Assembly (NCBI RefSeq): GCF_900188275.1 | Contig: NZ_FZNY01000005.1 | Location: forward strand, 372,001 to 436,000 | Origin: Dokdonia pacifica | GTDB lineage: Bacteria; Bacteroidota; Bacteroidia; Flavobacteriales; Flavobacteriaceae | Reading direction: 5' to 3' | DNA: 64,000 nt | Shown: one piece after another, positions 1 through 64,000 of the stretch | Layout of the letters: each line of letters opens with the position of its first letter | Numbering within the stretch: position 1 is the stretch's first letter | Notes under the pieces: generated by a model | Told to the model about the DNA's origin: nothing | The model's database searches: none | The model's input: the letters and a program-made list of their open reading frames with translations, nothing else | Program-made: the position numbers and the translations under genes

Positions 1-1495
1 TTAAAACAGCTTCTGGTGTGTCTTCTGTTTTTACTTTTTTCATGGCAGTCATAGCTTTACGCAATCTTGCACCTACTTTTTCTACTGGATGATTACGAAT
101 GGCATCATTTACAGCAATAAGTTCTTGATTATCTACGCTATTTGATTTCGCGAAAGCGGTACCTATCACATCTACATCAATAGTTTTCATAAAATCAGTA
201 AGTAATGGCTTGCATGCATGATCAAAAAGATAACATCCATACTCTGCTGTATCAGAAATGATACGGTTCATTTCAAACAGTTTTTTACGAGCTATCGTAT
301 TTGCAATAAGTGGTGTTTCGTGTAATGATTCATAGTAGGCTGAGTCTTCAATAATACCTGCAGCAGTCATGGTTTCAAAAGCAAGTTCGACACCAGATTT
401 CACAAAAGCAACCAGTAACGTCCCATGATCAAAATACGTTTGTTCAGAAATATGATCGCCTGTAATTTCTTGTTTTTCGAAAGCAGTTTCTCCAGTGGCA
501 GCACGCCATGTTAAAAGGTTTTTATCATCTGCTGCCCAATCTTCCATCATAGTTTTAGAAAAATGCCCCGAAATAATATCATCCATATGCTTTTCAAACA
601 GCGGGCGCATAATTGTTTTTAAGTCTGAAGCTAGTTGAAAAGCTTTGATCTTAGCAGGATTACTTAAGCGATCCATCATGGTGGTAATACCTCCGTGTTT
701 TAATGCTTCTGTAATCGTCTCCCATCCATATTGAATAAGTTTTGCTGCATACGAAGGTTCGATTCCTTTTTCAACCATTTTATCAAAACAAAGAATAGAT
801 CCTGTTTGTAATACACCACAAAGAATGGTTTGTTCTCCCATGAGATCACTTTTTACCTCAGCAACAAATGATGATTCTAATACACCTGCTCTATGTCCCC
901 CAGTTGCAACTGCGTAAGCTTTTGCTTGCTCTAATCCTTTTCCTTGCGGATCGTTATTAGGATGTACTGCAATAAGTGTAGGAACTCCAAAACCACGTAA
1001 ATACTCTTCTCTTACTTCAGATCCTGGGCACTTAGGTGCTACCATAATTACTGTCAAATCTTTACGTACCTGCATTCCTTCTTCAACAATATTAAATCCA
1101 TGAGAGTAAGATAGTGTTGCTCCTTCTTTCATAAATGGCATTACTGCCTTTACAACAGCAGTATGTTGCTTATCTGGAGTTAAATTAAGTACTACATCTG
1201 CATCAGGTATAAGCTCTTCATAGGTTCCTACCGTAAAATCATGTTTGGTTGCATTTTGATAAGAAGCACGTTTTTGATCTATAGCACTTTGGCGTAAAGC
1301 ATAAGAAATATCAAGACCACTGTCTCTCATATTTAATCCTTGATTTAGTCCTTGCGCACCACAACCTACAATAACCACTTTTTTCCCATCAAGGGCTTTG
1401 GTTCCGTTAGAAAATTCATCGGCAGTCATAAAACGACATTTTCCTAATTGTGCTAATTGATCTCTTAATGATAATGTGTTGAAATAATTTTCCAT
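1..1495 (-). CDS. ilvC: Ketol-acid reductoisomerase (NADP+), class II, 3' end cut by window edge
   Basis: IlvC converts 2-acetolactate and 2-aceto-2-hydroxybutyrate to the dihydroxy acids in valine and isoleucine synthesis, in the cytoplasm. I translated it by hand from the ATG at 1495; it stays open for 498 codons to the window edge, so only the last residues can be missing. This fits the long (about 490 aa) E. coli-type class II enzyme. A GCGAQG dinucleotide-binding loop lies at residues 44-49, HGFNI near 132 and [10 protein letters not shown] near 153. R68, A71, R76, S78 and Q110 match the positions known to set NADPH preference in E. coli IlvC, so NADPH use is inferred. It is the last visible gene of the ilvD-B-N-C operon. 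A copy of the TTTCGCGAAA palindrome (146-155) is read in frame as AFAK. Confidence 0.95.
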
Positions 1496-1514
1496 GTGTG
1501 TATCTTATTTTTTC

Positions 1515-1577
1515 ATCTCCGTATAGACGGAGATCTAATCTCTCTCTGTCCTTCGGACATCTCTCCTAAAGGGAGAG
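1515..1577. repeat. Three small hairpins in the ilvN-ilvC gap
   Basis: Three back-to-back inverted repeats fill the gap: ATCTCCGT/ACGGAGAT (1515-1534), TGTCC/GGACA around TTC (1547-1559) and CTCTCC/GGAGAG around TAAAG (1561-1577). None is followed by a clear U-run on the minus strand, so they look like interspersed repeat or mRNA-processing hairpins rather than terminators. Confidence 0.55.
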
Positions 1578-1612
1578 AATTAATAATCTTTTATATTTTT
1601 TAATTATGCTGT

Positions 1613-2164
1613 TTATGCTTTCGCGAAAGCGTACTCATCTTCTTTACTTAACTCTTTTAAAAGTTGAGAAATAGGCATTTCTGATTTTGTGACCGCAATA
1701 CGCCCTGATCTGACAAATTGCATAATCCCAAAAGGTTTTAATTCTCTGTATAATAATTCGATTTCAGAGCGCATTCCAGATTTTTCAAGTACAAAAAACT
1801 GTTTGTTTACTGTTACAATACGCGCATGACTATCTTTTATAATGTTTTGGATTTTTCGTTCTTCAAAGAGTAAATCTGATTTAATTTTAAATAATGCACT
1901 CTCTGTAAAGATGGTTTCCTCATCGGTATGGTAATAGGCTTTAATGACTTCTATCTGACGTTCAATTTGTCCTATAATTTTTTTGATTTGTGATTCTGTT
2001 ACTTGCACAACAAGTGTCCATCTGAACACATCATCTATTTCACTTTCTGAAGCAGAAAGGCTTTCTACATTGATGTGGCGACGTTGGAAAATAGCCGAAA
2101 TACGGTTTAATAACCCTATATTATTTTCGGTATAGATACTTACGGTATAGGTCTTTTTCTCCAT
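1613..2164 (-). CDS. ilvN: Acetolactate synthase small (regulatory) subunit
   Basis: Regulatory subunit of acetohydroxyacid synthase. It binds the IlvB catalytic subunit and normally confers feedback inhibition by branched-chain amino acids. The N-terminus (residues 5-75) is an ACT domain of the form YTVSIYTENNIGLLNRIS followed by a second alpha/beta domain; 183 aa is normal for the longer Flavobacterial type. It lies between ilvB and ilvC in the same direction, with a hairpin repeat in each flanking gap. The last residues, YAFAKA, are encoded by the palindrome GCTTTCGCGAAAGC (1617-1630), so the end of the gene may have been shaped by that repeat. Confidence 0.95.
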   Translation of the reverse strand: MEKKTYTVSIYTENNIGLLNRISAIFQRRHINVESLSASESEIDDVFRWTLVVQVTESQIKKIIGQIERQIEVIKAYYHTDEETIFTESALFKIKSDLLFEERKIQNIIKDSHARIVTVNKQFFVLEKSGMRSEIELLYRELKPFGIMQFVRSGRIAVTKSEMPISQLLKELSKEDEYAFAKA

Positions 2165-2250
2165 AACTTTTATTTTAATTCCTGAGAAAATGTGTATCTC
2201 ATTACTTTTAAATTAGTGTTCTTTTAAATTAGAATAACTCTTTATTATTT

Positions 2251-2275
2251 ATTTCCCCTTTGGGGGTTAGGGGCC
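2251..2275. repeat. CCCC-TTT-GGGGG hairpin repeat between ilvB and ilvN
   Basis: The segment reads TTTCCCCTTTGGGGGTTAGG and continues GGCC. It is a GC-rich patch in an AT-rich gap, placed immediately after the ilvB stop codon. Short CCCC/GGGG hairpins of this kind are, to my knowledge, interspersed in many Flavobacterial genomes. It could fold in the operon mRNA, but no U-run follows on the minus strand. Confidence 0.45.
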
Positions 2276-2277
2276 TT

Positions 2278-4002: not shown

Positions 4003-4010
4003 ACCCTCGC

Positions 4011-4034
4011 CTGACCTCTCCAAAAGAGAGAGGA
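4011..4034. repeat. CCTCTC-GAGAGG hairpin repeat between ilvD and ilvB
   Basis: CCTCTC (4015-4020) pairs with GAGAGG (4028-4033) around an A-rich loop. It resembles the CTCTCC/GGAGAG hairpin in the ilvN-ilvC gap and overlaps the ATG-extended 5' end of ilvB, which argues for the downstream ilvB start. Confidence 0.5.
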
Positions 4035-4055
4035 ATTTTTAATTAATTCTTTTAT

Positions 4056-6116: not shown

Positions 6117-7490
6117 GTGAATATCCCAAGCCTCATTGATTCGCAACGCACCTATTTTACTACAGGTAAGACAATAGCTATCTCATCACGCATTCAGGTT
6201 TTAAAAAAATTATACAAAAGCGTAAAAAAAAATGAAGAAGCCATTCATAAAGCGTTGTATTCAGATTTTAAAAAACCTATATATGAAAGTATTTCAAGTG
6301 AAACGGGAATTGTGTATCGAGAATTACGACTTGCAATTAAAGAATTGGAATTTTGGGCACGACCAAAAAAAGTAAAAGGATCACTACTTAATTTTCCATC
6401 AAAAGATTATCTGTATTATGAACCCTATGGAACAACGCTCATTATTGCGCCCTGGAATTACCCGTATCAACTTGCATTAACACCTCTTATTGGAGCCATT
6501 GCAGCAGGAAATACTGTTGTTATAAAACCTAGTGAACTTACTCCAGCGACAAGTCAAGTTATAGAAATTATTATTAGCGAAGTGTTTACTCCAGAATATA
6601 TTGCTGTGGTACAAGGTGCTATTCCAGAAACAACCGAATTACTTGCGCAACGTTGGGATTATATATTTTTTACAGGGAGTGTGTTTGTAGGCAAAATTGT
6701 AGCACAAGCTGCGGCAAAGCATTTAACACCTACTACATTAGAATTAGGAGGTAAAAACCCTTGTGTCATTGATGCATCTGTAAATATCGCATTGGTTGCA
6801 AAGCGTATTGTTTGGGGGAAGTTTTTAAATGCAGGACAAACATGTGTTGCCCCAGATTATATATTGATTGATGCTTCTATAAAAGATTCATTTTTAAAAG
6901 AATTGGAAAAAGAAATAGCGCTTGCCTATGGAAAAGATCCTTCAACTTCCCCTGATTTTGCTAGAATTATAAATGAAAAGAATTTTGATAGGCTCACTAA
7001 AATGTTAGAGGATGCACCTATTGCATTTGGAGGAAAAATTGATCGTAATCAACTCTATATAGCACCTACAATTATTGATAATCCAAGCATAGATAGTTTT
7101 GTTATGGAGGATGAAATTTTCGGCCCAATTTTGCCCGTCATCCCTTATCAAACCAAAGCAGATATAGAAGCTATTATAGACCGTTATGAGAAGCCATTAT
7201 CGGGGTATATTTTTTCGCGAAAGCGGTCTTTTACAAATTGGTTTTTAAGTCGTTTTTCTTTTGGAGGAGGTGCTGTAAATGATACCGTGATTCAATTTGC
7301 CAATGAAGCATTACCATTTGGCGGTGTAGGTCATAGTGGTGTAGGTAGTTATCACGGAAAGCATACTTTTTTAACTTTTAGTCATACAAAAGCCATTGTC
7401 AAAAAAGGAAATTGGTTAGACCTTCCTGTCAGGTATGCACCCTATAAAGGGAAAAATAACTTACTAAAGGCTGTTTTAAAATGGTTATGA
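6117..7490 (+). CDS. Aldehyde dehydrogenase, class 3-like
   Basis: NAD(P)-dependent oxidation of an aldehyde to the acid. Residues of the ALDH superfamily are visible: Asn114 in APWNYP, Glu209 in TLELGGKNP and the nucleophile Cys243 in NAGQTCVAPDY, followed by the C-terminal PFGGVGHSG motif. At 457 aa, with a hydrophobic and basic C-terminus, it fits the class 3 / fatty-aldehyde-like group, which often associates with membranes; the substrate cannot be told. The start is GTG at 6117, since no ATG lies nearby and the N-terminal helix begins there. It diverges from the ilv leader and converges on the response-regulator gene, their stop regions overlapping by six bases. The palindrome at 7213-7222 is read as FSRKRSF. 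Confidence 0.92.
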   Translation: MNIPSLIDSQRTYFTTGKTIAISSRIQVLKKLYKSVKKNEEAIHKALYSDFKKPIYESISSETGIVYRELRLAIKELEFWARPKKVKGSLLNFPSKDYLYYEPYGTTLIIAPWNYPYQLALTPLIGAIAAGNTVVIKPSELTPATSQVIEIIISEVFTPEYIAVVQGAIPETTELLAQRWDYIFFTGSVFVGKIVAQAAAKHLTPTTLELGGKNPCVIDASVNIALVAKRIVWGKFLNAGQTCVAPDYILIDASIKDSFLKELEKEIALAYGKDPSTSPDFARIINEKNFDRLTKMLEDAPIAFGGKIDRNQLYIAPTIIDNPSIDSFVMEDEIFGPILPVIPYQTKADIEAIIDRYEKPLSGYIFSRKRSFTNWFLSRFSFGGGAVNDTVIQFANEALPFGGVGHSGVGSYHGKHTFLTFSHTKAIVKKGNWLDLPVRYAPYKGKNNLLKAVLKWL

Positions 7491-8162
7491 TTGTATGATG
7501 AGATTATGTTTCATTACATAAATTACAGCACCTACTCTAGATGACACCCCTAGTTTTCTAAATAACTCTGCGCGTCTATTTTCTATGGTTTTAGGGCTTA
7601 AATTCATACGGTCTGCAATTTCTTTGTATCCTAAATCGGTACCACAGAGGTAATTTAAAAACTCCTGATCGGTAGGTTTTAATTGAAATTTTCTATGGTT
7701 ACTAATCTCAGTTTCTTTTTCTTCAGAAATACCATTTAAAGCCTTTTTACGAAGATCTCTATCTACTATTTCATTATACACAAATTCTCCTTTACTAGCT
7801 CTTACAATAGAGGCATTTAATTGCGTAGGTTCTACATCTTTAAGAAGATAGCCTTTACAACCGAAGAAAATCATATTAGAAATGGTTTCTTCATCATCTT
7901 CCATGGTAATGGCAATCACATTAATTTCTGGACAATTATCTTTAATCCATGCCATCGTGCTTAATCCATTCATGATGGGCATACGGACATCTAACAACAC
8001 AACATCTGGTTGTTCATGACCACTTTTAAGGTATTCTACAAACTCTCTACCGTTTTTGGCAACAAAAACGACATAGGTATCTTCAAAACCTGAGACTAGT
8101 GTTTTTAATGCTTTCGCGAAAAGAATATGATCGTCAACAATGGCTACTTTGAGCGGTTTCAT
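7485..8162 (-). CDS. Response regulator, NarL/LuxR (FixJ) type
   Basis: Cytoplasmic two-component output protein of 225 aa. The receiver domain (1-125) has the acidic pair D10-D11 and the phospho-acceptor Asp58 in DVVLLDVRMP. A LuxR-type helix-turn-helix (about 160-222) contains YKEIADRMNLSPKTIENRRAELFRKLGV. The four-base overlap with the histidine kinase gene upstream marks them as a cognate pair. DNA targets are unknown, but inverted and direct repeats upstream of the operon (10107-10190) are plausible autoregulatory sites. The palindrome at 8112-8121 is read as ILFAKALK in the first receiver helix. Confidence 0.93.
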   Translation of the reverse strand: MKPLKVAIVDDHILFAKALKTLVSGFEDTYVVFVAKNGREFVEYLKSGHEQPDVVLLDVRMPIMNGLSTMAWIKDNCPEINVIAITMEDDEETISNMIFFGCKGYLLKDVEPTQLNASIVRASKGEFVYNEIVDRDLRKKALNGISEEKETEISNHRKFQLKPTDQEFLNYLCGTDLGYKEIADRMNLSPKTIENRRAELFRKLGVSSRVGAVIYVMKHNLIIQS

Positions 8163-10532: not shown

Positions 10533-11387
10533 AAATGATACGGTATCATCTTGTTTTTTCTGAGCTAATACATTCATAGCACTTTCAGAAAGTTGTAATA
10601 TGCGTGGGTATCCGCCTGTAGTTTGACAATCTTGCATTAAAATCATCATTCGTCCAGAGGGTGTTAACTGTACTGTACCGGGAATCACTGGCCCTGTTGT
10701 TATAGAAGGTATTTTATGAGCTATTGTATCCTCTAATTGTATTGCCATTCGATTCCAAAGTTTGGAAATAGTAAATGTTTTTTTTGATATATCAGCACGT
10801 AACTTCTCATCCAAAAGATCGTATTCAGGTCCTTTATATGTAATGAGATCTTCTTCTTTCAGGTAAGAAACAATAGCAGTTTCCTTTTCAATTTTAAGTC
10901 GGGCGCCTTTTATTGCACCATATAGAGATATACCTACAGGAATACTTGCTCCCTTTTGTATTGTTTTGGATTTTGTAATAGGCACATACATACTTTTACT
11001 TTCTAATACTGATGGTGATTGCATTCCTCCAGCAATTGCAAAATAGCCTCGACAGCCTTCTGTAATTTTAGTGAGCTCTAGAATTTGTCCTTTACGTCCT
11101 TTATAAACTGTATTATTTTTGATGGTTTTAGCATCTAGGGTTGCAATGGTATTTCCGCCAGTAATCACAAAGTGTCTATCACAAAGAAATTGAATAGAAG
11201 GGCCTACCAAAGTATATTCAAGCACTGCTTCATTTAGGGAATTATTGACAAGTGTATTTGCAAGTTGCATCGCTTTTTTATCCATGACTCCACTTTCTGG
11301 AATTCCTAAATGAGCATATCCAAAGCGACCTTGATCTTGAATAGTTGTATAAAAACCTGTACGTTCTATTTGAATACTATCTTTCAT
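10518..11387 (-). CDS. pxpC: 5-oxoprolinase subunit C (biotin-dependent carboxyltransferase family, KipA-like)
   Basis: With PxpA and PxpB it forms the ATP-dependent prokaryotic 5-oxoprolinase that opens pyroglutamate to glutamate. The 289-aa protein shows the AHS2/KipA signature: GFYTTIQDQGRFGYAHLGIPESGVMD at the N-terminus, a GGNT motif and a C-terminal LMQDCQTTGGYPRI. It overlaps pxpB by 11 bases in the order transporter-pxpA-pxpB-pxpC, supporting a stoichiometric operon. The older KipA name reflects sporulation-kinase effects in Bacillus, which do not apply in this phylum. Confidence 0.92.
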   Translation of the reverse strand: MKDSIQIERTGFYTTIQDQGRFGYAHLGIPESGVMDKKAMQLANTLVNNSLNEAVLEYTLVGPSIQFLCDRHFVITGGNTIATLDAKTIKNNTVYKGRKGQILELTKITEGCRGYFAIAGGMQSPSVLESKSMYVPITKSKTIQKGASIPVGISLYGAIKGARLKIEKETAIVSYLKEEDLITYKGPEYDLLDEKLRADISKKTFTISKLWNRMAIQLEDTIAHKIPSITTGPVIPGTVQLTPSGRMMILMQDCQTTGGYPRILQLSESAMNVLAQKKQDDTVSFLLTS

Positions 11388-12108
11388 CTTCTTCTTCTAG
11401 TATTGGAAATACGGTTTCTGTAAGTGCCTGATTTTTTATACGTTGATACTCTTTTGCGTCTATTGCATAAAATTGAATAGCATCTCCTGCTTTAAATGGA
11501 GAAGGTTGCTTTTTTGAAACATCAAATAGTATACTAGGACTATGTCCAATGGTGTACCACCCGCCAGGGCTATCTTGAGGATATATTCCTGTTTGTTTTC
11601 CTCCTATAGCCACACTTCCCTTTTTGACATTTTGAGATGGGATTGATTTACGTTCTATATGTAATCGTTTATCAAGGCCTTCTAAATAAGGAAATCCTGG
11701 TAAAAATCCCATAAAATAAACAGTATACAATGGTTTTGTGTGTAGTTCTATTAATTGATTTAATGTGAGCGAAGTCTTCTCTAAATAGGCATCTAAATCA
11801 TCTCCAAATAAGGATTCATAGCATACCGGGATGCGATGAACTCTTGTTTTCTGGTCTTCCTGAGGGATTGTTGCTTTAATAATTTCGCGAAAGCGGTCTT
11901 CAATTGTATTTCCAGAAAGAGAATCTATGGTAACATATTTAAGTAAAATCTCTGTGTAGGTATGAATAATCTCGGCATCAAATTCTTTTGCAAGGTTTTT
12001 TTTAACAGCAAGAAGAAACAGCAATAATGATCTTGAAGGAACAGATTTCCATTGAATACTCCAAGAGTTCTCTCCTAATTTAAAAATATGGACATTGTGA
12101 TAGTACAT
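11377..12108 (-). CDS. pxpB: 5-oxoprolinase subunit B (KipI-like)
   Basis: A 243-aa AHS1/KipI family subunit that works with PxpC in 5-oxoproline hydrolysis. Family motifs visible are YFMGFLPGFPYLEGLD, SVAIGGKQTGIYPQDSPGGWYTIG and a conserved C-terminal PFKAGDAIQF. It overlaps pxpA by one base at 12108 and pxpC by 11 bases, indicating translational coupling. The palindrome at 11883-11892 is read as DRFREI. Confidence 0.92.
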   Translation of the reverse strand: MYYHNVHIFKLGENSWSIQWKSVPSRSLLLFLLAVKKNLAKEFDAEIIHTYTEILLKYVTIDSLSGNTIEDRFREIIKATIPQEDQKTRVHRIPVCYESLFGDDLDAYLEKTSLTLNQLIELHTKPLYTVYFMGFLPGFPYLEGLDKRLHIERKSIPSQNVKKGSVAIGGKQTGIYPQDSPGGWYTIGHSPSILFDVSKKQPSPFKAGDAIQFYAIDAKEYQRIKNQALTETVFPILEEEDER

Positions 12109-16705: not shown

Positions 16706-16729
16706 TATACGCTTTCGCGAAAGCGTATA
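16706..16729. repeat. Perfect 24-bp palindrome, extended TTTCGCGAAA family
   Basis: Centred on TTTCGCGAAA and symmetric out to TATACGC on the left arm. The same 24-mer is repeated exactly at 55544-55567, 39 kb away. Confidence 0.9.
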
Positions 16730-18175: not shown

Positions 18176-18189
18176 GCTTTCGCGAAAGC
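18176..18189. repeat. Palindrome GCTTTCGCGAAAGC, intergenic
   Basis: Exact 14-bp member of the palindrome family in the 227-base gap upstream of the amidase gene. Confidence 0.85.
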
Positions 18190-20323: not shown

Positions 20324-20802
20324 ACATTAAAAAAATTAAGTACGTAAAAGTAGTTTTTATATTCCAATACTTTATATGAAGATTTATCTCAACATACAGT
20401 GTGCTCAGATTGCATGATTTTGATGTAAATAATAGTGTTGCTGGGTATGCTTTCGCGAAAGCATATATAGTACTTTTATAAAAGACAAGTAAAAAACACT
20501 TTTTTGATAAAAATATGTTAATAAATGCACTTTAACGGCTTTATAGTGTTTTTTGTCGATTTTTAATTTAAAAATATTTAATTTTGCTTTTTAATATATA
20601 TGAATATATCAAGTTATAATACCTTGCGCTAATTAATTCAAGAAGAAACATTCTTAACCCTATTTTTCAAGCATTTTCAAATTTATATTTTTATTAAAAA
20701 TAACGAATAAATCACCTATATAACTTGCACCCCATTTTAGTATATGGTTTTTAAAATTTGTTATTAAATCCTACTATTAAGTGTACCAAAATCATAACCT
20801 AC
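20324..20802. other. Intergenic region upstream of the TonB receptor
   Basis: About 480 AT-rich bases separating divergent genes. It contains the palindrome at 20446-20465 and presumably both promoters. A TTTTAAAATTTG stretch near 20749 resembles a -7 element but has an extra spacer base. A frame open from a TTG at 20758 adds 15 codons to the receptor but is unlikely to be translated. Confidence 0.5.
20446..20465. repeat. Perfect 20-bp palindrome TATGCTTTCGCGAAAGCATA
   Basis: Member of the TTTCGCGAAA family with both flanks co-varying (TATGC/GCATA instead of TACGC/GCGTA), which shows that symmetry beyond the core is kept. Confidence 0.9.
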
Positions 20803-25396: not shown

Positions 25397-25408
25397 GCTT
25401 TCGCGAAA
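25397..25408. repeat. Palindrome family member, intergenic, one arm decayed
   Basis: GCTTTCGCGAAA followed by TG; the core TTTCGCGAAA at 25399-25408 is exact. It lies about 30 bases after the kinase stop codon. Confidence 0.75.
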
Positions 25409-28010: not shown

Positions 28011-29549
28011 TTACCCCAACCATCCATCTCTATCCAAACTACGATACTGTATCGCTTCGCTGATATGTGTTCCGGTAACGGTTTCGCTTCCTGCGAGATC
28101 TGCAATGGTTCGAGATACTTTTAAAATACGATCATACGCTCTCGCAGAAAGATTCAGACGTTCCATAGCGGTTTTTAATAGCGTTTTAGAAGCCTCATCA
28201 AGCGCACAGTACTTTCGGATTTGCTTGACATTCATCTGAGCGTTGTAGTTTGTGGATTCGCTTTCGCGAAAGCGGACTACTTGTAATTCCCTCGCTGCCG
28301 TCACTCGTTTCCGAATCTCGACGCTGGACTCGGCTTTTTGCTCACTACTCAATTTTTCAAACGGAACGGGTGTTACTTCAATATGAATATCAATACGATC
28401 TAATAAAGGACCACTCACCTTCCCTAAATAACGTTGCATCTCTGCTGGACTACTCGTCACTGGAGCGTCGGGATCATTAAAATACCCTCCTGGACTAGGA
28501 TTCATACTCGCTACCAACATAAAACTACTAGGATAGGTTACTGTAAAGCGGGCTCTGGAAATGGTCACTTCTCGATCTTCCAATGGCTGACGCATCACTT
28601 CTAATACCTCACGTTTAAACTCGGGTAACTCATCCAGAAACAACACCCCATTGTGAGATAATGAGATTTCGCCTGGTTGCGGATAGCTTCCGCCTCCTAC
28701 GAGAGCAACATTTGAGATGGTATGATGTGGTGATCTAAATGGGCGTTCGCTCATCAAACCTTGGTCATTCTTAACACGTCCCGCCACACTATGAATTTTA
28801 GTAGTTTCCAACGCCTCTCGCAAACTCATCGGCGGAAGAATGCTCGGAAGTCGTTTAGAAATCATGGTCTTTCCTGAACCTGGAGGACCTATCAATATAA
28901 TATTATGTCCGCCTGCAGCGGCAATTTCCATACAGCGTTTTATAGACTCTTGTCCTTTGACATCGGCAAAATCAAATTCTGGATGTTCCAAACTTTTATA
29001 GAACTCGGCTCTTGTATCTATAACGGTTTGTTCTAATGGAATGTCTTTATCAAAAAAGGCAATAACTTCGCTTATATTTTCGACACCATACACTTCTAAT
29101 CCATCAACAATAGCAGCTTCTTTAGCATTTTGTTTGGGAAGAATAAAGCCTTTGAAACCTTCTTCTCTTGCTTTGATCGCAATAGGCAAGGCACCTTTTA
29201 TGGGTTGTAATCCTCCATCTAGAGAGAGTTCGCCCATGATAATGTATTCTTCTACGCGATCTCCTTTAATCTGTTGTGTAGCGACTAATATTCCTGTTGC
29301 TAATGTAAGATCATAGGCAGAGCCTTCCTTACGCATATCGGCAGGTGACATATTGATAATAATCTTTTTTCCTGGGATTTTATAGCCATTATTTTGAAGT
29401 GCTGCTGCAATTCTATAATTGCTTTCTTTAATGGCATTATCAGGTAATCCTACAAGGTGGTATCCGATTCCTTTATCTACATTGACTTCAACGGTAATGG
29501 TGGTGGCATCTACACCAAACACTGCGCTACCAAAAACTTTGGTTAACAT
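28011..29549 (-). CDS. comM: YifB/ComM family Mg-chelatase-like AAA+ ATPase
   Basis: A 512-aa AAA+ protein. In naturally competent bacteria ComM is a hexameric helicase that promotes branch migration during DNA integration; elsewhere its role is less clear. An N-terminal ChlI-like domain (1-180) is followed by Walker A GPPGSGKTM (about 219), Walker B GVLFLDELPEF and sensor segment SFMLVASMNPSPGGY, then the C-terminal Mg_chelatase_C domain ending DGWLG. The palindrome at 28259-28274 is read as RFRESES. A 96-bp copy of the 3' end lies at 25447-25542. The gene is intact. Confidence 0.94.
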   Translation of the reverse strand: MLTKVFGSAVFGVDATTITVEVNVDKGIGYHLVGLPDNAIKESNYRIAAALQNNGYKIPGKKIIINMSPADMRKEGSAYDLTLATGILVATQQIKGDRVEEYIIMGELSLDGGLQPIKGALPIAIKAREEGFKGFILPKQNAKEAAIVDGLEVYGVENISEVIAFFDKDIPLEQTVIDTRAEFYKSLEHPEFDFADVKGQESIKRCMEIAAAGGHNIILIGPPGSGKTMISKRLPSILPPMSLREALETTKIHSVAGRVKNDQGLMSERPFRSPHHTISNVALVGGGSYPQPGEISLSHNGVLFLDELPEFKREVLEVMRQPLEDREVTISRARFTVTYPSSFMLVASMNPSPGGYFNDPDAPVTSSPAEMQRYLGKVSGPLLDRIDIHIEVTPVPFEKLSSEQKAESSVEIRKRVTAARELQVVRFRESESTNYNAQMNVKQIRKYCALDEASKTLLKTAMERLNLSARAYDRILKVSRTIADLAGSETVTGTHISEAIQYRSLDRDGWLG

Positions 29550-35133: not shown

Positions 35134-37161
35134 TTAATTATTATTAAATCGTGTTATTCCTTCTTTTAACCAAGCTAAATATTCCTCAATATCAGGAGTA
35201 TAAGATACTGGCTTATTTAATTCTTTTTCGTCATGGTCTAGCAATACATAGTAAGGAGCGGCTAAAATACCATAACGTTCTATCTGAAAATTACTCCATT
35301 TATTTCCTACTGTTTTTATACGACGTCCTGAAGCACTAACGCCTTGTTCACTTTCTGGGAGTTCTTCTCTAGAGTCACCGTATAAAGAAATTAAAACAAT
35401 ATCATTACGTAAAACATTTAATACTTTAGGGTCTGACCATACGCGTTCTTCCATTCGTCTACAATTTATACAGGCATATCCCGTAAAATCTAAAAGAATC
35501 GTTTTATTTACCTTTTTTGCATAGGCAACTCCTGCATCATAATCTGTAAAAGATAATAAATCATGTGGCCCCAACTCTGCATGTTCTGGAATTTCTTCTT
35601 CTGAAGAAACGATAGAAGATTTACCACCTACACCATACGGAGATTCACTATTTTTCATAGGAGGAGGAAAACCACTTATCAATTTAAGAGGCGCTCCCCA
35701 TAGACCCGGTATCATATATACTACAAGACTTAATGTAGTTAATCCAAGTAAAAGACGTCCTACCGAGATATGATTTAAATCACTATCATGAGGTAACTTT
35801 AATTTCCCGAATAGATATACCGTTAGCCCTATCATGATAGCAATAATGATCGCTAAGAATATTTCGCGCTCTAAAATATTAGTTTGTGCAACAAGATCTG
35901 CATTTGATAAAAATTTAAATGCCAATGCTAACTCTAAAAACCCTAATACTACTTTTACAGTATTCAGCCATCCACCTGATTTTGGTAATGAGTTTAACCA
36001 ACCAGGAAACATCGCAAATAATGCAAATGGTAATGCTATAGCAGAAGAAAAACCTAACATACTTATGATAGGTGCTATTCCTCCTTTTGTTACAGATTCA
36101 ACAAGAGCAGTTCCAACGATAGGTCCTGTACAAGAAAAAGAAACAATAGCCAATGCCAATGCCATAAAGAAAATACCGATCAACCCTCCTCGATCTGCTT
36201 GTCGATCTACTTTATTTGCCCATGATTGCGGTAACATAATTTCAAATGCTCCCAAAAATGAAATAGCAAATACTACGAGTAAAACAAAAAACGCAATATT
36301 AAAAGGGACACTTGTAGAAACCTCAACAATGGCAGTTTCTCCAAAAATAGCTGTCACTGCAAGTCCTAATACTACATATATAAGTATAATAGATAAGCCA
36401 TATATAATGGCATTTTTAATTCCTTGCGCACGTGATTTGCTCTGTTTTGTAAAAAAGCTCACGGTCATGGGTATCATAGGAAATACACATGGTGTTAAGA
36501 GTGCTGTAAACCCACCTAAAAAAGATAGAAAAAATATGAGCCATAGCCCTTTTTTATCTTCATTTTGATCATCATCATCATCGTCTATTACCTTTTCTTT
36601 TTTAGCTGTATTTGTATCGGTTCCGTATTCCTGAAATGCAGTAAAATTATCAAAAATAACCACCTTGTTATTTACTAAGTCATGTACTACATTAAACTCT
36701 TGATTGATACAAACTTCTTTACAGGTTTGATGTTTTATTATCGATTTTACAAAGGGTGTATTTGGATCGTTAAGCGTAATCTTTTGAGATAATCGTCCTG
36801 TATCTTTCCAAAAAACCTCATCTACTCCAAAAATCTCGCTATACTCTCTATGAGTAGGACTTTCGACTGCGTTTCCTTCTAATATATAAGTGGCATTACT
36901 TTTAGGAAAAAACTCAAATCGCAAAGGATTTGGTCCATCTTCAGGAGTAAACTGGCTATATACATGCCAATCCTTTTCTATAACAACATTATAGTGTAAA
37001 ATATATTCTGTATCTGAAATTTTTTCAATTTCTCCAGACCATTTCACAGGGTCAAACTTCTGACCACCTCCAAAGCCTTGTCTATCGCCAAACCCTTGAG
37101 CCATCGCAAGTGTTGCGGTAAGTATAAATACTCCGAGGAGTGTAAGCGTTTTACGCATCAT
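35134..37161 (-). CDS. dsbD: Thiol:disulfide interchange protein DsbD-like
   Basis: A 675-aa inner-membrane protein that passes electrons from cytoplasmic thioredoxin to periplasmic disulfides. A signal peptide is followed by a DsbD N-terminal-like domain (to about 185) with CKEVC. Next come a hydrophobic core of about eight TM helices (about 205-510) carrying the conserved Cys of TPCVFPMIPM and FSCTGPIVG, and a C-terminal thioredoxin domain with CINC in DFTGYACINCRRMEE. An Asp-rich linker (DDDDDD) precedes the TM core. It overlaps tilS by four bases, an arrangement of convenience rather than function. Confidence 0.93.
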   Translation of the reverse strand: MMRKTLTLLGVFILTATLAMAQGFGDRQGFGGGQKFDPVKWSGEIEKISDTEYILHYNVVIEKDWHVYSQFTPEDGPNPLRFEFFPKSNATYILEGNAVESPTHREYSEIFGVDEVFWKDTGRLSQKITLNDPNTPFVKSIIKHQTCKEVCINQEFNVVHDLVNNKVVIFDNFTAFQEYGTDTNTAKKEKVIDDDDDDQNEDKKGLWLIFFLSFLGGFTALLTPCVFPMIPMTVSFFTKQSKSRAQGIKNAIIYGLSIILIYVVLGLAVTAIFGETAIVEVSTSVPFNIAFFVLLVVFAISFLGAFEIMLPQSWANKVDRQADRGGLIGIFFMALALAIVSFSCTGPIVGTALVESVTKGGIAPIISMLGFSSAIALPFALFAMFPGWLNSLPKSGGWLNTVKVVLGFLELALAFKFLSNADLVAQTNILEREIFLAIIIAIMIGLTVYLFGKLKLPHDSDLNHISVGRLLLGLTTLSLVVYMIPGLWGAPLKLISGFPPPMKNSESPYGVGGKSSIVSSEEEIPEHAELGPHDLLSFTDYDAGVAYAKKVNKTILLDFTGYACINCRRMEERVWSDPKVLNVLRNDIVLISLYGDSREELPESEQGVSASGRRIKTVGNKWSNFQIERYGILAAPYYVLLDHDEKELNKPVSYTPDIEEYLAWLKEGITRFNNN

Positions 37162-38498
37162 ATTGCATATGTTATTTTTAGTAGTTTTTTTGTATCCTCT
37201 TGCGCACTATATCTTCTATCAGAACGATACCCTAGTATCCAAATAATTCCTTTTTGGTCACATAACAACCAGGTATTTTCTTTGGCTACCAAAGATAGCT
37301 TTTCATCTTTAAAAAATTTACTCAATTTCTTTTTCCCTTGCATTCCTGAAGGATAAAAGAAATCACCTTCTTTCCAACGGCGTACAGTCATTGGAAATTG
37401 TACTTTAGAAAGGTCTACATATATCTCAGTATCTAAGACAGTTGCAATAGCATCTACCCCAGCAAATGACAACCTTCCATAATCGCCTTGATGTTCTTGT
37501 ATGTCTTCCTTTATTAGAAAAGAAGTCGTTTTATTTCTTTCTTCTTTACGATAAGGGTAAAGTTGTAATGTGGTTCGGTCTTTTAGTAGTCGATGTGTAT
37601 CCGAAAAAAGTTGTTTGCCCGATTGCGCTTCTAGTAAATGATACACATCTTCCCAAGCAGTAAATCCATAATCCTTATACAATACATAAAGTACAGCATG
37701 AGGAGTTGGATGCGCTTTTAATTTAGGAATGTCTACACAGATAGCACGAGGTCCTATTAAACTATCCAACGGATAGAAATATCGGTCCTTCAGTTCTTGC
37801 TCATATACATTTAATAAGCTCACCGATTGTTGTACATGCGTTACTGTTTTTTCTGCCGTGTGTAGTATATCTGGTCGTATTTTTTCTAGTTCAGGGATAA
37901 CATGATGACGGATCGCATTACGTACATATGCATCAGAAGCATTACTACTATCTTCACGCCATGTAATTTGATGCGCTTGTGCATATTCATAAATACGCTT
38001 TCGCGAAAACGGTAACAGCAACCTCAACACATTCCCAGAAATAGCCGGTATTCCACTCAAACCATCTATTCCTGTACCTCGAGTTATATTAATCAGCAGT
38101 GTTTCTAGATTATCATTACTATGGTGTGCTGTCAGTATATAATCGTATCCTTCAGCGGCAGTGAGTTCTTTAAACCAAGTATACCTTAAATCGCGAGCTG
38201 CCATTTGGGTAGAGATGGTATGTTTTTTTGCGTAAGCGGATGTATCAAAACTCTTCTCGTAATACGAAAGCGTGTTTTCTGCAGCAAGCGCCTTTACAAA
38301 ACGCGCATCTTCATCACTTTCTTCTCCTCGTAAGTTAAAATTACAGTGTGCAATCCCTATATCTAATCCAGATGATATACAAAGGTGTACCAAAACAGTA
38401 CTGTCTAATCCTCCACTTACGGTAGCTAGTAATTTTGTATTCTCTGTGAGGAAAGGAAATTGTTTTTTTAGATGTGATTGAAACGCATCAAGGAGCAT
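37158..38498 (-). CDS. tilS: tRNA(Ile)-lysidine synthase
   Basis: TilS converts the wobble C34 of the minor tRNA-Ile(CAU) to lysidine, an essential step for reading AUA. The 446-aa protein has the PP-loop ATVSGGLDSTVL (about 26-37), a LTAHHSNDNLETLLINITRGTG substrate-binding segment and the C-terminal TilS domains (VRRWKEGDFFYPSGMQGKKKLSKFF). It is followed by dsbD with a four-base overlap. The palindrome at 37999-38008 is read as FSRKRIY. Confidence 0.95.
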   Translation of the reverse strand: MLLDAFQSHLKKQFPFLTENTKLLATVSGGLDSTVLVHLCISSGLDIGIAHCNFNLRGEESDEDARFVKALAAENTLSYYEKSFDTSAYAKKHTISTQMAARDLRYTWFKELTAAEGYDYILTAHHSNDNLETLLINITRGTGIDGLSGIPAISGNVLRLLLPFSRKRIYEYAQAHQITWREDSSNASDAYVRNAIRHHVIPELEKIRPDILHTAEKTVTHVQQSVSLLNVYEQELKDRYFYPLDSLIGPRAICVDIPKLKAHPTPHAVLYVLYKDYGFTAWEDVYHLLEAQSGKQLFSDTHRLLKDRTTLQLYPYRKEERNKTTSFLIKEDIQEHQGDYGRLSFAGVDAIATVLDTEIYVDLSKVQFPMTVRRWKEGDFFYPSGMQGKKKLSKFFKDEKLSLVAKENTWLLCDQKGIIWILGYRSDRRYSAQEDTKKLLKITYAI

Positions 38499-41534: not shown

Positions 41535-41546
41535 TTTCGCGAAAGC
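41535..41546. repeat. Palindrome family member, intergenic
   Basis: TTTCGCGAAAGC (core 41535-41544) about 80 bases upstream of the M23 peptidase gene; the left arm has decayed to ATA. Confidence 0.8.
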
Positions 41547-46364: not shown

Positions 46365-46376
46365 TTTCGCGAAAGC
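46365..46376. repeat. Palindrome family member, intergenic
   Basis: TTTCGCGAAAGC followed by GTA, in the 62-base gap between the GNAT gene and the cysteine desulfurase gene; the left arm is CATT. Confidence 0.8.
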
Positions 46377-48610: not shown

Positions 48611-49171
48611 TTATTTTCGTTGTGCGTTCTGATAGACATAAACCTCAGTAGCACCCGCGCCATATTTTTGATAGTCGGCACTGTAAAATTTAATCCCATC
48701 ATACCTGTTAAAGAGATAATATAGCTCATCTTTTAGCACACCCTCTCCTACTCCATGAATAAATACAATTTTAGGAATACGCTTTGATATCGCAAAAAGT
48801 AATTGTCGCTCTGCCGTATCTACTTGAAGGGTAAGAATATCATGATTGGTCATATGCCTATATGACTTCACCAATTTCTCAATATGCAAATCTACTTCCA
48901 TAGGAGGCAAGTTGCGTTCCTTTGGTTTTACGCGAGCAGTTTTGGGTTTAACTTTAGGTTCCTTTTCTAGCCCTTTCTGATACGATACATCGATAAGTTT
49001 TTCTTTAATGGTGTTACTTATAGCAGGGATAATTTCGCTTTCGCGAAAGCGTATAATGAATCCATCTGTGGTTTCTATTGTAATGTATGGCATATCTATG
49101 GCGACTATAATGCCATCTAGATTATCATCTAGTACCTGAATTGACTGTCCTATTTCGAAGTTTTTGCTCAA
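48611..49171 (-). CDS. Smr-domain (MutS2-like) protein
   Basis: A roughly 187-aa protein with a C-terminal Smr nuclease-like domain (about 90-185: VDLHIEKLV, FIHGVGEGVLKDEL and GATEVYVYQ). The N-terminal region is a small beta domain (FEIGQSIQVLDDNLDGIIVAID) of the DUF2027 type. The start at 49171 is TTG; the upstream ATG at 49228 would add a hydrophobic stretch overlapping the divergent promoter, which I consider wrong. The palindrome (49036-49051) is read as RFRESE, the same peptide as in comM. Confidence 0.82.
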   Translation of the reverse strand: MSKNFEIGQSIQVLDDNLDGIIVAIDMPYITIETTDGFIIRFRESEIIPAISNTIKEKLIDVSYQKGLEKEPKVKPKTARVKPKERNLPPMEVDLHIEKLVKSYRHMTNHDILTLQVDTAERQLLFAISKRIPKIVFIHGVGEGVLKDELYYLFNRYDGIKFYSADYQKYGAGATEVYVYQNAQRK

Positions 49172-49248
49172 AACTGTGTTTTTGAACGACAAAAATATAC
49201 AAACTATCGAAAAGCTTAGCCCTGACAAGGAATTTGGGAAAAAAAAGT

Positions 49249-53024: not shown

Positions 53025-53044
53025 TACGCTTTCGCGAAAGCGTA
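53025..53044. repeat. Perfect 20-bp palindrome TACGCTTTCGCGAAAGCGTA
   Basis: The commonest extended form of the palindrome family, just downstream of the DUF2752 stop and upstream of a terminator. Confidence 0.9.
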
Positions 53045-55543: not shown

Positions 55544-55567
55544 TATACGCTTTCGCGAAAGCGTATA
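55544..55567. repeat. Perfect 24-bp palindrome, copy identical to 16706-16729
   Basis: Extended palindrome with core TTTCGCGAAA, about 90 bases upstream of the ECF sigma start; identity with the 39-kb-distant copy extends over all 24 bases. Confidence 0.9.
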
Positions 55568-58710: not shown

Positions 58711-58718
58711 TATACCTA

Positions 58719-58726: not shown

Positions 58727-58788
58727 TAAAGCAAAATACATTTTATCATAATACCTATTTGTATTGAAAAAATGATCCTAAAATTCAT

Positions 58789-58815
58789 ATAGCCTGTTTC
58801 ATAAAAACAGGCTAT
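58789..58815 (+). terminator. Terminator between the peptide gene and rlmD
   Basis: ATAGCCTGTTT and AAACAGGCTAT form an 11-bp stem with a five-base loop, followed by TTTTG. The rlmD start lies about 10 bases later, so rlmD needs either read-through or a promoter overlapping the hairpin. Confidence 0.8.
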
Positions 58816-58824
58816 TTTTGCGTG

Positions 58825-60237
58825 ATGTCTAGAAGAAAACAAAACCGCAAAGTTTTTACGGAACTTGAAGTAACAGATGCTGGTGCCAAAGGCAAAGCAA
58901 TCGCTCATGCACCCGACGGAAAAGTCGTTTTTATAAATAATGCTGTACCTGGCGATGTCGTAGATGTACAGACTACAAAAAAACGTAAATCATACTACGA
59001 AGGCACGGCTACACATATTCATACGCTTTCGCGAAAGCGTACACAACCACAATGTCAACACTTTGAAGTATGTGGTGGGTGTAAGTGGCAACATATGGAC
59101 TATAAATACCAACTAGAGTATAAACAGCAAGAAGTTGTCAATAACCTGACTCGCTTAGGAAAAATAAAACTCCCAGAAGTAACGCCTATCGCTGGAAGTG
59201 CTTCTCAATATTTTTATCGCAATAAGATGGAATTTGGCTTTTCGGATAGTAAGTGGCTTACCATGGAGCAAATCAAAAGCGATGAAGTAATAGAAGACCG
59301 AAATGCCCTAGGATTTCATATCGCTGGAATGTGGGATAAGATTTTAGATATTGAAAAATGTCATCTACAACAAGATCCAAGTAATGCGATACGTAATGGT
59401 ATTAAATCATTTGCTACCAAAAATAATATGGCATTTTACAATGCCCGCAATCAAGAGGGGTTATTGCGTACCTTAATGATACGCACATCATCTACTGGAG
59501 AATTGATGGTGCTCGTACAGTTTTACAAAGAAGATGTTGCGCAAAGAACACTCCTACTCGATTATATAAAAAATGAATTTCCCGAAATTACATCTTTATT
59601 ATATGTAATTAATTCAAAAGGAAATGATACTATTTATGATCAAGAAGTAATTTGCTATCATGGGAGAGATCATATTTTTGAAGAAATGGAAGGATTGCAA
59701 TTTAAGATCAATGCAAAATCTTTTTATCAAACCAATTCTGCACAAGCCTATGAATTATACAAAATCACAAGAGATTTTGCGGGACTAACTGGTAATGAAC
59801 TTGTATATGATTTATATACTGGTACAGGAACCATTGCACAATTTGTTGCAAAGAAAGCAAAGAAAGTGATTGGAGTAGAAGCAGTTCCTGATGCGATTGA
59901 AGCTGCCAAAGAAAATGCACAACGCAATCATATCGATAATGCCGAATTCTTTGTAGGGGATATGAAAAAAGTATTTAATGAGCAGTTTATAAGTACACAT
60001 GGAATCCCTGATGTGATTATCACAGATCCACCTAGAGATGGAATGCATGCCGATGTGGTTAAACAAATCTTAAACATTGCGCCACAAAAAGTAGTTTACG
60101 TAAGTTGCAATAGTGCAACACAAGCACGTGATCTTGCGTTACTAGATGAAACCTATAAAGTAACAAAAGTGCAACCTGTAGATATGTTTCCGCAAACGCA
60201 TCACGTAGAAAATGTAGTACTACTAGAAAAAAGATAG
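58825..60237 (+). CDS. rlmD: 23S rRNA (uracil-C5)-methyltransferase, RlmD-type
   Basis: A 470-aa SAM-dependent enzyme that methylates a specific uridine in 23S rRNA (RlmD/RlmCD/TrmA family). An N-terminal TRAM domain (about 10-70) is followed by the Fe-S cysteine cluster (QCQHFEVCGGCKWQH), a SAM-binding site LVYDLYTGTGTIAQF and the catalytic Cys in VVYVSCNSATQARDL. Which uridine is modified (1939 or 747) cannot be decided. The ATG at 58825 is preferred over the GTG three bases upstream. The palindrome at 59022-59041 is read as LSRKRT. Confidence 0.93.
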   Translation: MSRRKQNRKVFTELEVTDAGAKGKAIAHAPDGKVVFINNAVPGDVVDVQTTKKRKSYYEGTATHIHTLSRKRTQPQCQHFEVCGGCKWQHMDYKYQLEYKQQEVVNNLTRLGKIKLPEVTPIAGSASQYFYRNKMEFGFSDSKWLTMEQIKSDEVIEDRNALGFHIAGMWDKILDIEKCHLQQDPSNAIRNGIKSFATKNNMAFYNARNQEGLLRTLMIRTSSTGELMVLVQFYKEDVAQRTLLLDYIKNEFPEITSLLYVINSKGNDTIYDQEVICYHGRDHIFEEMEGLQFKINAKSFYQTNSAQAYELYKITRDFAGLTGNELVYDLYTGTGTIAQFVAKKAKKVIGVEAVPDAIEAAKENAQRNHIDNAEFFVGDMKKVFNEQFISTHGIPDVIITDPPRDGMHADVVKQILNIAPQKVVYVSCNSATQARDLALLDETYKVTKVQPVDMFPQTHHVENVVLLEKR

Positions 60238-60261
60238 AACTACGCTTAAAAACAAACCATC

Positions 60262-62279: not shown

Positions 62280-62973
62280 CCTATCTATTATTTTTATGAG
62301 TGCATTCCTTAGCGCTCAAGAAAATGAAGATACTACAGAGACAGCTACTAAAGATGTTACACAACAAAATGTCCAGTACTATGGCTTACGTATAGGAGTT
62401 GATCTTTCAAAACCCGTACGTAGTCTTTTAGACGATCAGTATAGTGGTCTTGAGATTGTAGGAGATTTTAGAGTGAGTAATCGTTATTATGTAGCCGCAG
62501 AACTAGGAAATGAAACATTTACAGTAGATGAATTTTCAAATATTGATGTAACTTCTTCAGGTTCATACATAAAAGCTGGATTTAACTATAATGCCTATAA
62601 TAATTGGTTTGGTATGAATAACCTTATCTATGCAGGTGTTCGTGCAGGTTTTTCAACTTTTACTCAAGAACTAAACACCTATACAATTTCTACCTCAAAT
62701 ACATTCTTTGAAGAAGATGTGCGCACAGATACTAGAGAATTTGACGGACTAAATGCCACTTGGTTAGAATTTCAACTAGGTATACAAACTGAACTGTTTA
62801 GTAATTTTTATTTAGGAATTAATCTTCAAATCAAAAATAGAGTTACAGAAACAGAACCCGATGGATTTGAAAATGTATATATTCCAGGATTTGGAAAAAC
62901 TACAGACGAGAGTAAATTTGGTGTAGGTTATGGATATACACTATCCTACCTTATTCCTATTTTCAAAAAATAA
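62245..62973 (+). CDS. DUF6048-like outer-membrane beta-barrel protein
   Basis: A 242-aa protein with signal peptide (RFFISLSIIFMSAFLSAQ) and alternating beta strands (YYGLRIGVDLSKPVRSLL, YYVAAELGNETF) ending YGYTLSYLIPIFKK. It matches the DUF6048 family and is placed next to DUF6452 as in other Flavobacteria. Function is unknown; a small barrel is inferred. Its start lies inside the DUF6452 gene. Confidence 0.82.
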   Translation: MRLQHISRFFISLSIIFMSAFLSAQENEDTTETATKDVTQQNVQYYGLRIGVDLSKPVRSLLDDQYSGLEIVGDFRVSNRYYVAAELGNETFTVDEFSNIDVTSSGSYIKAGFNYNAYNNWFGMNNLIYAGVRAGFSTFTQELNTYTISTSNTFFEEDVRTDTREFDGLNATWLEFQLGIQTELFSNFYLGINLQIKNRVTETEPDGFENVYIPGFGKTTDESKFGVGYGYTLSYLIPIFKK

Positions 62974-62994
62974 AAAGTGTATTGTTTTGTACGC

Positions 62995-63004
62995 TTTCGC
63001 GAAA
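62995..63004. repeat. Palindrome family core at the edge of a tandem repeat
   Basis: GCTTTCGCGAAATC with exact core TTTCGCGAAA at 62995-63004; the right arm runs directly into the first imperfect repeat unit. Confidence 0.8.
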
Positions 63005-63113
63005 TCGAACTTGTGAGATTCACGACCGGAGGGAGAATGAAATGGTAAATCGAGCTTGCAAGACCTGCCTGCCGTCAGGCAGGTTCATGACCAAAAGGGA
63101 GAGCGTAGCGTTA
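63002..63113. repeat. Two imperfect tandem repeat units, the second with a hairpin
   Basis: Unit 1 (63002-63046) and unit 2 (63047-about 63113) share AAATCGA[A/G]CTTG, TTCA[C/T]GACC and AGGGAGA. Unit 2 carries an extra hairpin CCTGCCTG-CCGT-CAGGCAGG (63064-63083) absent from unit 1. No open frame is supported, and the segment lies between convergent genes. Confidence 0.65.
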
Positions 63114-63133
63114 AAGCATATAAAGGATATCTC

Positions 63134-63982
63134 TTATTTTTCTTTGGTAAATAAGAGATCATCTGCTGTCTCACTATTATATAAGGAATCCAGAAAAGAG
63201 AGAAACTCCTCTGTAGAAGTACGCAAATCTATTTCTTTTTTCTGTCCCACAAATCGAACCTTATCAAAATGAGGAAGGATAAGTGCTACAAATTCCTTAT
63301 TAGAAACACCTGATACATTTTTAAGATGATGTGGTACATATTCTATGTATAACATTTTAACATCAGTCAGGACATCTTGCATACCCTGTAAAGCAAAATA
63401 CTCTGCCCCTTCTATATCTACAATAATGTGATCTGGTTTTGGAAGGCTTTCCTGTTTAATATGATCATCCAAACGTATCATATCTACCTCGACCGTATCT
63501 GGATTATCATGAGAATACAGATAACTGTCCTTAATAGGTTTTATCTTACTCCCACCACTATTAAGTGTATTTTTATAAAAAGATATTTTCTTTTCTGAAT
63601 CTCCTACGGCATAATTAAAAAGCGTCGCATTCTCTAAATCATTTATTAAAACATTTTTAGATACATATCCAAAAGTATCTGGATTTGCCTCATACCCGAC
63701 AATGGTCTTACATTGCTTCCCTATAGGTACTAAAAGAGTCCCTATATGAGTTCCCAAAACATATACAATATCATCTTTATGGATATACGTTAAAAGCTCT
63801 TTGATTTCAGAAATATTCCATCCTCCTTTGAAACCAAGATAACGACCAATTGTATAATCATCTATAGGCGCTAGTATCATTCCATTTTCAGTGTCATAAA
63901 TAACTCCTTTTGCATGATGCCCTAATACTTTCTTTCGAAGTTTTATTTTAAACTGACGCTTTTTAACCTTTATTTTTTTCAT
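63134..63982 (-). CDS. FkbM family methyltransferase
   Basis: A 282-aa SAM-dependent methyltransferase-fold protein. The FkbM domain (about 70-230) shows a SAM-binding loop YVLGTHIGTLLVPIGKQC, the acidic end of beta2 GYEANPDTF, and the conserved IIVDIEGAEYFALQGMQD. The basic N-terminus is not a signal. FkbM enzymes methylate hydroxyls of polyketides or sugars; a role in polysaccharide or glycolipid synthesis is possible, but no such genes lie nearby in the window. Confidence 0.88.
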   Translation of the reverse strand: MKKIKVKKRQFKIKLRKKVLGHHAKGVIYDTENGMILAPIDDYTIGRYLGFKGGWNISEIKELLTYIHKDDIVYVLGTHIGTLLVPIGKQCKTIVGYEANPDTFGYVSKNVLINDLENATLFNYAVGDSEKKISFYKNTLNSGGSKIKPIKDSYLYSHDNPDTVEVDMIRLDDHIKQESLPKPDHIIVDIEGAEYFALQGMQDVLTDVKMLYIEYVPHHLKNVSGVSNKEFVALILPHFDKVRFVGQKKEIDLRTSTEEFLSFLDSLYNSETADDLLFTKEK

Positions 63983-64000
63983 ATCTAAGTATAGATAAAA

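Follow-up and report, generated by a model that had tools for sequence, protein, structure and literature searches.

An iterated palindrome of Dokdonia and related marine Flavobacteriaceae as a putative DNA-uptake signal

The palindrome in the window and its genome

The stretch analysed here (the window; 64,000 bp of Dokdonia pacifica, contig NZ_FZNY01000005.1, positions 372,001–436,000) carries 19 copies of the 10-bp palindrome TTTCGCGAAA, nine between genes and ten within them (gene calls throughout were made in this analysis). In 100 dinucleotide shuffles of the window the mean was 0.04 copies and the largest count one. A preliminary description of this DNA had listed 19 exact cores, with well under one expected and the same 9:10 split, all of which is borne out; 17 of its coordinates are correct, while two are one base low (28261 for 28262 and 49038 for 49039). 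The sites are as follows.

146–155, in a gene on the minus strand (-4 to 1495); peptide AFAK
1619–1628, covering the final codons of the gene for the small subunit of acetolactate synthase (1613–2164, minus strand); C-terminal ...AFAKA
7213–7222, in an aldehyde dehydrogenase-family gene (6117–7490, plus strand); peptide FSRK
8112–8121, in a response regulator gene (7485–8162, minus strand); peptide FAKA
11883–11892, in a gene with a CT_C_D domain (11377–12108, minus strand); peptide RFRE
16713–16722, intergenic; 24-bp perfect palindrome
18178–18187, intergenic
20451–20460, intergenic; 20-bp perfect palindrome
25399–25408, intergenic, between convergent genes
28262–28271, in a YifB/ComM-type gene (28011–29549, minus strand; Mg-chelatase-like ATPase family); peptide RFRES
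35083–35092, near the start of a CocE/NonD hydrolase gene (33289–35127, minus strand); peptide AFAKA
37999–38008, in a TilS-like gene (37158–38498, minus strand); peptide FSRK
41535–41544, intergenic, between divergent genes
46365–46374, intergenic
49039–49048, in an Smr-domain gene (48611–49228, minus strand); peptide RFRES
53030–53039, intergenic, between convergent genes; 20-bp perfect palindrome
55551–55560, intergenic; 24-bp perfect palindrome
59027–59036, in a gene with tRNA_U5-meth_tr and TRAM domains (58822–60237, plus strand); 20-bp perfect palindrome, peptide LSRK
62995–63004, intergenic, between convergent genes

The 24 bases reported as identical in two distant copies (16713 and 55551) form the perfect palindrome TATACGCTTTCGCGAAAGCGTATA. 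The statement that most copies extend to CGCTTTCGCGAAAGCG does not hold in the window, where the exact 16-mer occurs at 6 of 19 sites and the 14-mer at 10 of 19; the 16-mer is found at 51 of the 101 sites on the whole contig, and at 79 of 119 and 72 of 87 sites in two further genomes, G264 (D. donghaensis DSW-1) and G281.

Enrichment persists throughout the genome of the window (G000; 5.52 Mb, 31 contigs), with 1195 copies of TTTCGCGAAA and 15 of a control word obtained by reading it backwards. Codon usage is not the cause, as had been considered, because about half of the copies are intergenic and genic copies use all three reading frames (83, 36 and 28 copies, pooled over G000, G264 and G281). 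Outside the motif the hexamer TCGCGA is not enriched (24 in the window, 19 of them within the motif; 5.8 expected). The DSW-1 chromosome comprises 3,293,944 bp with 38.2% G+C (PMC4974333), and the first 400 kb of G264 have a G+C fraction of 0.383.

Site architecture

Site profile, placement and spacing were analysed over 440 kb of G000 and, for both G264 and G281, over 400 kb. The whole site spans ~50 bp, with a strict 10-bp core, GCG arms (G 0.89–0.99, C 0.92–0.98 and G 0.75–0.92 on both sides) and then 15–20 bp of G-poor, A/C-rich sequence outward. Position +4 is mostly A or T and +5 mostly A; G makes up 7–9% over +6 to +21, with A and C in excess, and background is reached near +22. Dokdonia has T at +4 where a second carrier genus, g11 (probably Nonlabens), has A, a difference that constitutes dialects of the site. 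Single-mismatch forms are scarce (23, with 14.5 expected, vs 101 exact sites in G000; 26, with 10.6 expected, vs 119 in G264), and terminal-base variants account for one of the 23 and none of the 26.

The outer bases had been described as co-varying to keep symmetry; in both the window and its contig, left-right matching equals that of shuffled pairings. A weak excess at +4 to +5 is seen in G264 and G281 (equalled or surpassed in 42 and 4 of 1000 shuffles, respectively), and matching at +6 to +10 in G264 lies under every shuffle. Reading the outer arms as a hairpin or as co-varying was rejected, as the arms in G000 do not co-vary beyond their shared consensus. Since the arms are in the main without left-right covariation, we read the site as one that would be bound by a dimer on double-stranded DNA rather than as forming an RNA hairpin.

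Placement and spacing

In G000, G264 and G281, 51 of 101, 72 of 119 and 37 of 87 sites are intergenic, although intergenic sequence accounts for 12.8, 12.4 and 11.5% of the total, respectively. Sites are depleted within 50 bp of gene starts (7, 11 and 6; about 14, 26 and 12 expected). In DSW-1, 21 sites lie 5–15 bp past stop codons, vs 6.6 expected, an enrichment absent from the other two genomes. Copies are on average 3–5 kb apart and more evenly spaced than under a null that preserves the genic/intergenic split (coefficient of variation 0.60, 0.79 and 0.78 vs 1.03, 1.12 and 1.03), with few gaps below 1 kb between sites (6, 9 and 5 vs 22.8, 38.6 and 18.8). Twenty 20-kb samples of the DSW-1 chromosome contain 131 sites in 400 kb (3–10 per sample), with no origin-terminus trend visible by eye.

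In DSW-1 the motif is missing from two stretches, of 16.7 and 16.8 kb, that consist mostly of giant genes. Two such genes (G264 C1, 288426–301721 and 305125–320283; 4431 and 5052 aa) account for the longest intervals without a site in the 400 kb analysed, and their downstream neighbours (287411–288367 and 304110–305066, minus strand) encode identical 318-aa proteins. At the other extreme, two sites lie 33 bp apart between surE and the gene preceding lpxB (G264 C1, 101679 and 101712); among 13 Dokdonia genomes G279 and G270 likewise have two copies here (33 and 47 bp apart, respectively), nine have one and G280 has none. Site pairs less than 650 bp apart were considered as possible autoregulatory operators of a reader gene, and no obvious regulator was recognised beside them by eye in three stretches.

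Conservation

Alignments covered one region of about 55 kb, in which the DSW-1 stretch has 31 sites; those uncounted lay outside the compared congener stretches or did not align. In three congeners at about 82% identity, 15, 14 and 15 of 16 alignable DSW-1 cores are identical, as are 8 of 9 in a fourth at 75% identity. Control 10-mers are unchanged in 20–22% (genic) and 24–32% (intergenic) of cases at 82%, and in 7.5% and 18% at 75%; those with two CpG are unchanged in 14–18% and 3%, respectively. In the reverse view, 15/18, 14/17, 15/18, 8/9, 4/4 and 1/1 congener sites alignable to DSW-1 are identical.

Genic cores are 0.99–1.00 conserved, vs 0.71–0.76 for their own flanks and a genic average of 0.75–0.82, and genic sites occupy fast-evolving, permissive spots. 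In the orthologue sets compared, AFAKA, RFRES or LSRK stand where relatives' proteins have different residues, and the AFAKA end of IlvN in the window extends past the point where four relatives stop.

Within a genus the sites stay in place, and from one genus to the next most of them lie elsewhere. A site ~350 bp upstream of lpxB is kept in 12 of 13 Dokdonia, and another just past lpxB occurs in all six g11 genomes compared and in two of the 13 Dokdonia. The same in-gene position is occupied in two of four Dokdonia sites with a Nonlabens orthologue and in one of two with an orthologue in G367, a genome of a third carrier genus; one of these three lies in another reading frame. Fully independent gain in each genus is weakened by the coincidence of three in-gene sites across genera.

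Distribution among genomes

Among 120 genomes representing one per genus of the family, G000 and G010 have 1195 and 595 copies and the next highest 27; none of 148 genomes surveyed across the order exceeds 28, apart from G000. All 18 Dokdonia (g1) genomes searched are enriched (481–1195 copies), as are all 23 of g11 (319–893). When the 14-mer GCTTTCGCGAAAGC was counted in 397 genomes from 237 genera of the family, 408–903 copies were present in six genomes, which belong to three genera (Dokdonia, g11 and the genus of G367), and at most 19 in any other. Of 80 named ilvB loci, 79, including those of Tenacibaculum and Polaribacter, lack TTTCGCGAAA; the sole carrier, from an uncultured Dokdonia metagenome-assembled genome, has seven copies in 21.7 kb. 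Copy number barely tracks genome size, a genome of 3.3 Mb having 1033 copies and one of 5.5 Mb having 1195. Two small contigs of G281 (C1 and C3) were considered as plasmids and rejected, as the parts read carry chromosomal-type genes.

In an LpxB tree of 25 genomes the carriers do not form one clade (p-AU 0.0497; one gene, long branches), in which case the motif would have been gained at least twice, or gained once and lost in some lineages. No earlier report of TTTCGCGAAA in Bacteroidota was found, none of the titles among the matches listed being on these genera; for uptake sequences in Flavobacteriaceae there was a match on Riemerella columbina.

Islands and phages

In non-carrier genera motif copies are clustered. 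All 16 14-mers of G076 fall within 78 kb of contig C3, in an ~85-kb island (about 31–116 kb, borders by eye; L369–L373) with heavy-metal efflux genes and some small genes seemingly in common with Nonlabens (G281 C4 near 285 kb). At the island end, a large XisF/CcrB-like recombinase (below curated cut-offs) adjoins genes read by eye as yqeY and ftsZ. Cores at 118779 and 135761 lie just outside the island (in what by eye is the ftsZ/ftsA gap, and in a nearby gene), which suggests that core DNA beside the island may have been acquired together with it. The island also carries a four-gene operon with a 1056-aa SMC-like protein (by eye; L371:736–6795), of which the second gene alone matches a PADLOC model, JetB, weakly (E 1e-4); our guess is a divergent Wadjet-like or MukBEF-like system.

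Of 15 cluster stretches from six other genera, 12 overlap mutually at 72–97% identity; detailed annotation of one, G087, showed a metal efflux system of the CusA/CzcA type. We read such clusters as DNA originating from carrier hosts. An element-encoded reader was considered and rejected: the clusters are islands, and in the two examined gene by gene, both metal-efflux islands, no reader was recognised.

Among 120 IMG/VR stretches listed, 14 have at least two sites, all with a G+C fraction of 0.36–0.48; the others have one site each and many are GC-rich, those matches probably being due to chance. Of five multi-site viral loci tested, four have proteins that match portal, terminase, head or DnaB-type families, and the proteins of L103 match families of unknown function. 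In 18 contigs picked for at least two sites, some of them near-copies of one virus (identical site flanks), there is one site per 3.8–10.3 kb. The related Nonlabens phages P12024S and P12024L (L330, L331), whose annotation includes ERF and YqaJ-like recombination proteins, have no site in 35.7 kb each, and not even one TCGCGA hexamer.

Possible function

Preliminary suggestions for the palindrome were methylation, chromosome organisation, DNA uptake and a DNA-binding protein. Uptake is favoured here by how strictly the sites are conserved, how evenly they are spaced, the tolerant places in which they lie and their pattern in phages, and a chromosome-organising protein is its main rival; a PF00145 methylase is not required. 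We put the probability that the palindrome is an uptake signal of naturally transformable marine Flavobacteriaceae at a little under one half. By analogy, the combination of conservation, spacing, permissive placement and copy number matches the uptake sequences of Neisseria and Haemophilus. As described in PMC2397512, the Neisseria DNA uptake sequence (DUS) is 97% conserved vs about 85%, with 71% exact in all genomes compared, and occupies permissive spots while being scarce in acquired DNA. Strong uptake-sequence preference has, according to PMC7811141, been described for two families only, Pasteurellaceae and Neisseriaceae. Riemerella, of the same order, is reported to be transformable without pilus homologues, through ComEC, DprA, ComF, RecA and proteins of unknown function widespread in Flavobacteriaceae (PMC8459023), and R. 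columbina to take up its own DNA by preference (PMC7965970).

In the proposed mechanism, the strict TTTCGCGAAA core plus a G-poor arm of ~20 bp on each side would be bound by a receptor at the cell surface or in the periplasm, probably in the form of a symmetric dimer, which would pass the DNA on to a competence pathway of the Riemerella type that needs no pilus. Fragments whose site is intact would enter and recombine more often, and intact sites would therefore repair broken ones (molecular drive). Such drive could keep hundreds to ~1000 exact copies 3–5 kb apart where genes tolerate them, and could also seed sites into resident islands and temperate phages. Phage carriage was dropped as an objection, because the temperate Haemophilus phage HP1 itself bears 17 cores of the uptake signal sequence (USS) in 32.0 kb, vs 0.16 expected.

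Several points weigh against uptake. We know of no uptake signal that is a perfect palindrome, and symmetry of this kind would be at least equally expected of an ordinary dimer acting inside the cell. Judged by titles, no paper describing Dokdonia or Nonlabens as naturally transformable was found. A type IV pilus was rejected as the shared machinery, the T2SSE/pilus ATPase being over cut-off in only 8 of 32 motif genomes (and 2 of 10 others). Regular expressions for ComEC, DprA and other competence proteins gave no match in a minor part of the Dokdonia and g11 genomes; G367 had one loose ComEC match. The YifB/ComM-family gene in the window (28011–29549) itself bears a site, but this family is broad and not specific to competent bacteria. 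The DUS is scarce in acquired DNA; here, larger genomes are little richer in the motif than smaller ones and giant genes lack it, but islands and some phages bear it. The absence of the motif from phages P12024S and P12024L is compatible with any model. No reader protein was found among the candidates looked at (ParB, island genes, neighbours of close site pairs). ParB/Noc was rejected as reader: each of 36 genomes has one ~300-aa ParB copy, longer extra copies occur in some carriers and non-carriers with no extra paralogue tied to the motif, and parS-like sites are present in all 54 genomes searched.

The main rival is a chromosome-organising homodimer that would bind the ~50-bp palindrome every few kb and bridge, insulate or compact the DNA, with phages and islands adapting to it. 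Such a protein would fit the symmetry of core and arms, mainly without covariation as for a dimer on double-stranded DNA, the mutual exclusion of sites below about 1 kb, their presence all along the sampled DSW-1 chromosome and their carriage by phages and islands. However, constraint this strong, even against protein sequence, would need strong selection at every site unless drive helps, and motif-free stretches of 16.7 and 16.8 kb, mostly giant genes, are tolerated; nor do we know of such a protein with a thousand strict sites, since such sites are usually degenerate. On balance we consider it unlikely. Another reading would be a genome-wide code of an entirely new category, in which a dedicated dimeric protein in separate flavobacterial genera reads ~1000 strict 50-bp palindromes as an intracellular mark of self or architecture, under selection strong enough to have reshaped proteins and resident phages; this, too, we consider unlikely. 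The palindrome might also be a Chi-like or self-marking site, whereby a recombination or degradation enzyme or a defence system spares motif-bearing DNA. E. coli Chi has a similar copy number, some phages carry sites, and the motif-free P12024S and P12024L encode recombination proteins of their own; but Chi is read as a single strand, the motif here is a palindrome within a ~50-bp footprint, stretches of more than 16 kb lack it, and two related phages are a single observation; we consider this reading improbable.

Maintenance by a methyltransferase and methyl-directed repair, which would create and keep sites, has been proposed for HIP1 of cyanobacteria (PMC4390886), and an iterated palindrome with a CpG-rich core would suit it. 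An m5C methylase of the PF00145 family is, however, missing from 16 of 32 motif genomes (7 of 12 Dokdonia, including G000, 8 of 19 g11, and G367), so that a methyltransferase of that family is not common to the carriers and a requirement for it was rejected; TCGCGA is not enriched in the window beyond the motif, and the few near-misses do not cluster at the ends of the core as they do in HIP1. We consider methylation a highly improbable explanation. Many similar palindromes could also arise from mobile repeats (REP/MITE-like) inserting and spreading, but about half lie in genes in all frames, sequence beyond ~20 bp is background, decayed copies are few and positions are kept within a genus. 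Bidirectional transcription terminators would suit the excess just past stop codons in DSW-1, which does not recur in the other two genomes; but about half of the sites are inside genes, only 14–33% of gaps per orientation class are occupied, and the arms are A/C-rich rather than T-runs. Neither mobile repeats nor terminators are at all credible to us.

If the uptake reading is true, Bacteroidota would provide a third, independent case of uptake sequences, one that is palindromic and has no pilus ATPase common to its carriers. It would offer a clean test of molecular drive vs selection and a receptor findable by simple affinity methods, and would suggest that Dokdonia, Nonlabens and the third genus share one uptake code and thus form one gene-exchange community. 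Motif-dense islands in other genera would serve as a donor fingerprint, and hint at a possible source of metal-resistance DNA. The intracellular rival, if true, would represent a new kind of chromosome-wide protein code.

Comparison with known systems

Chi is alike in its ~10^3 copies and differs in being short, asymmetric and strand-oriented. The motif resembles the parS/Noc sites of ParB in its TTTC..GAAA half-sites, with a 2-bp spacer here and a 4-bp spacer there. HIP1 (GCGATCGC), described as a highly iterated palindrome of unsettled function (PMC4390886), had been invoked in the preliminary description; the likeness stands as to high iteration and palindromy but is an analogy only, the word and phylum being different, no PF00145 methylase being common to the carriers and deviations not lying at the ends.

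The USS of H. influenzae has a strict short core, AT-rich flanking segments and an average spacing of about 1 kb (PMC7811141). Like the site described here it combines a strict short core with flanking segments and is carried by a temperate phage (HP1), whereas here spacing is 3–5 kb and the arms are symmetric and G-poor. The USS core is asymmetric, as is the DUS, which is read by a type IV pilus protein. In contrast to the DUS, the motif of Dokdonia is a perfect palindrome with symmetric arms, and a pilus ATPase is not common to its carriers; with the DUS it shares ~10^3 copies of a 10-bp word, a core conserved far above its surroundings, permissive positions, a mixed genic and intergenic placement, and lineage dialects.

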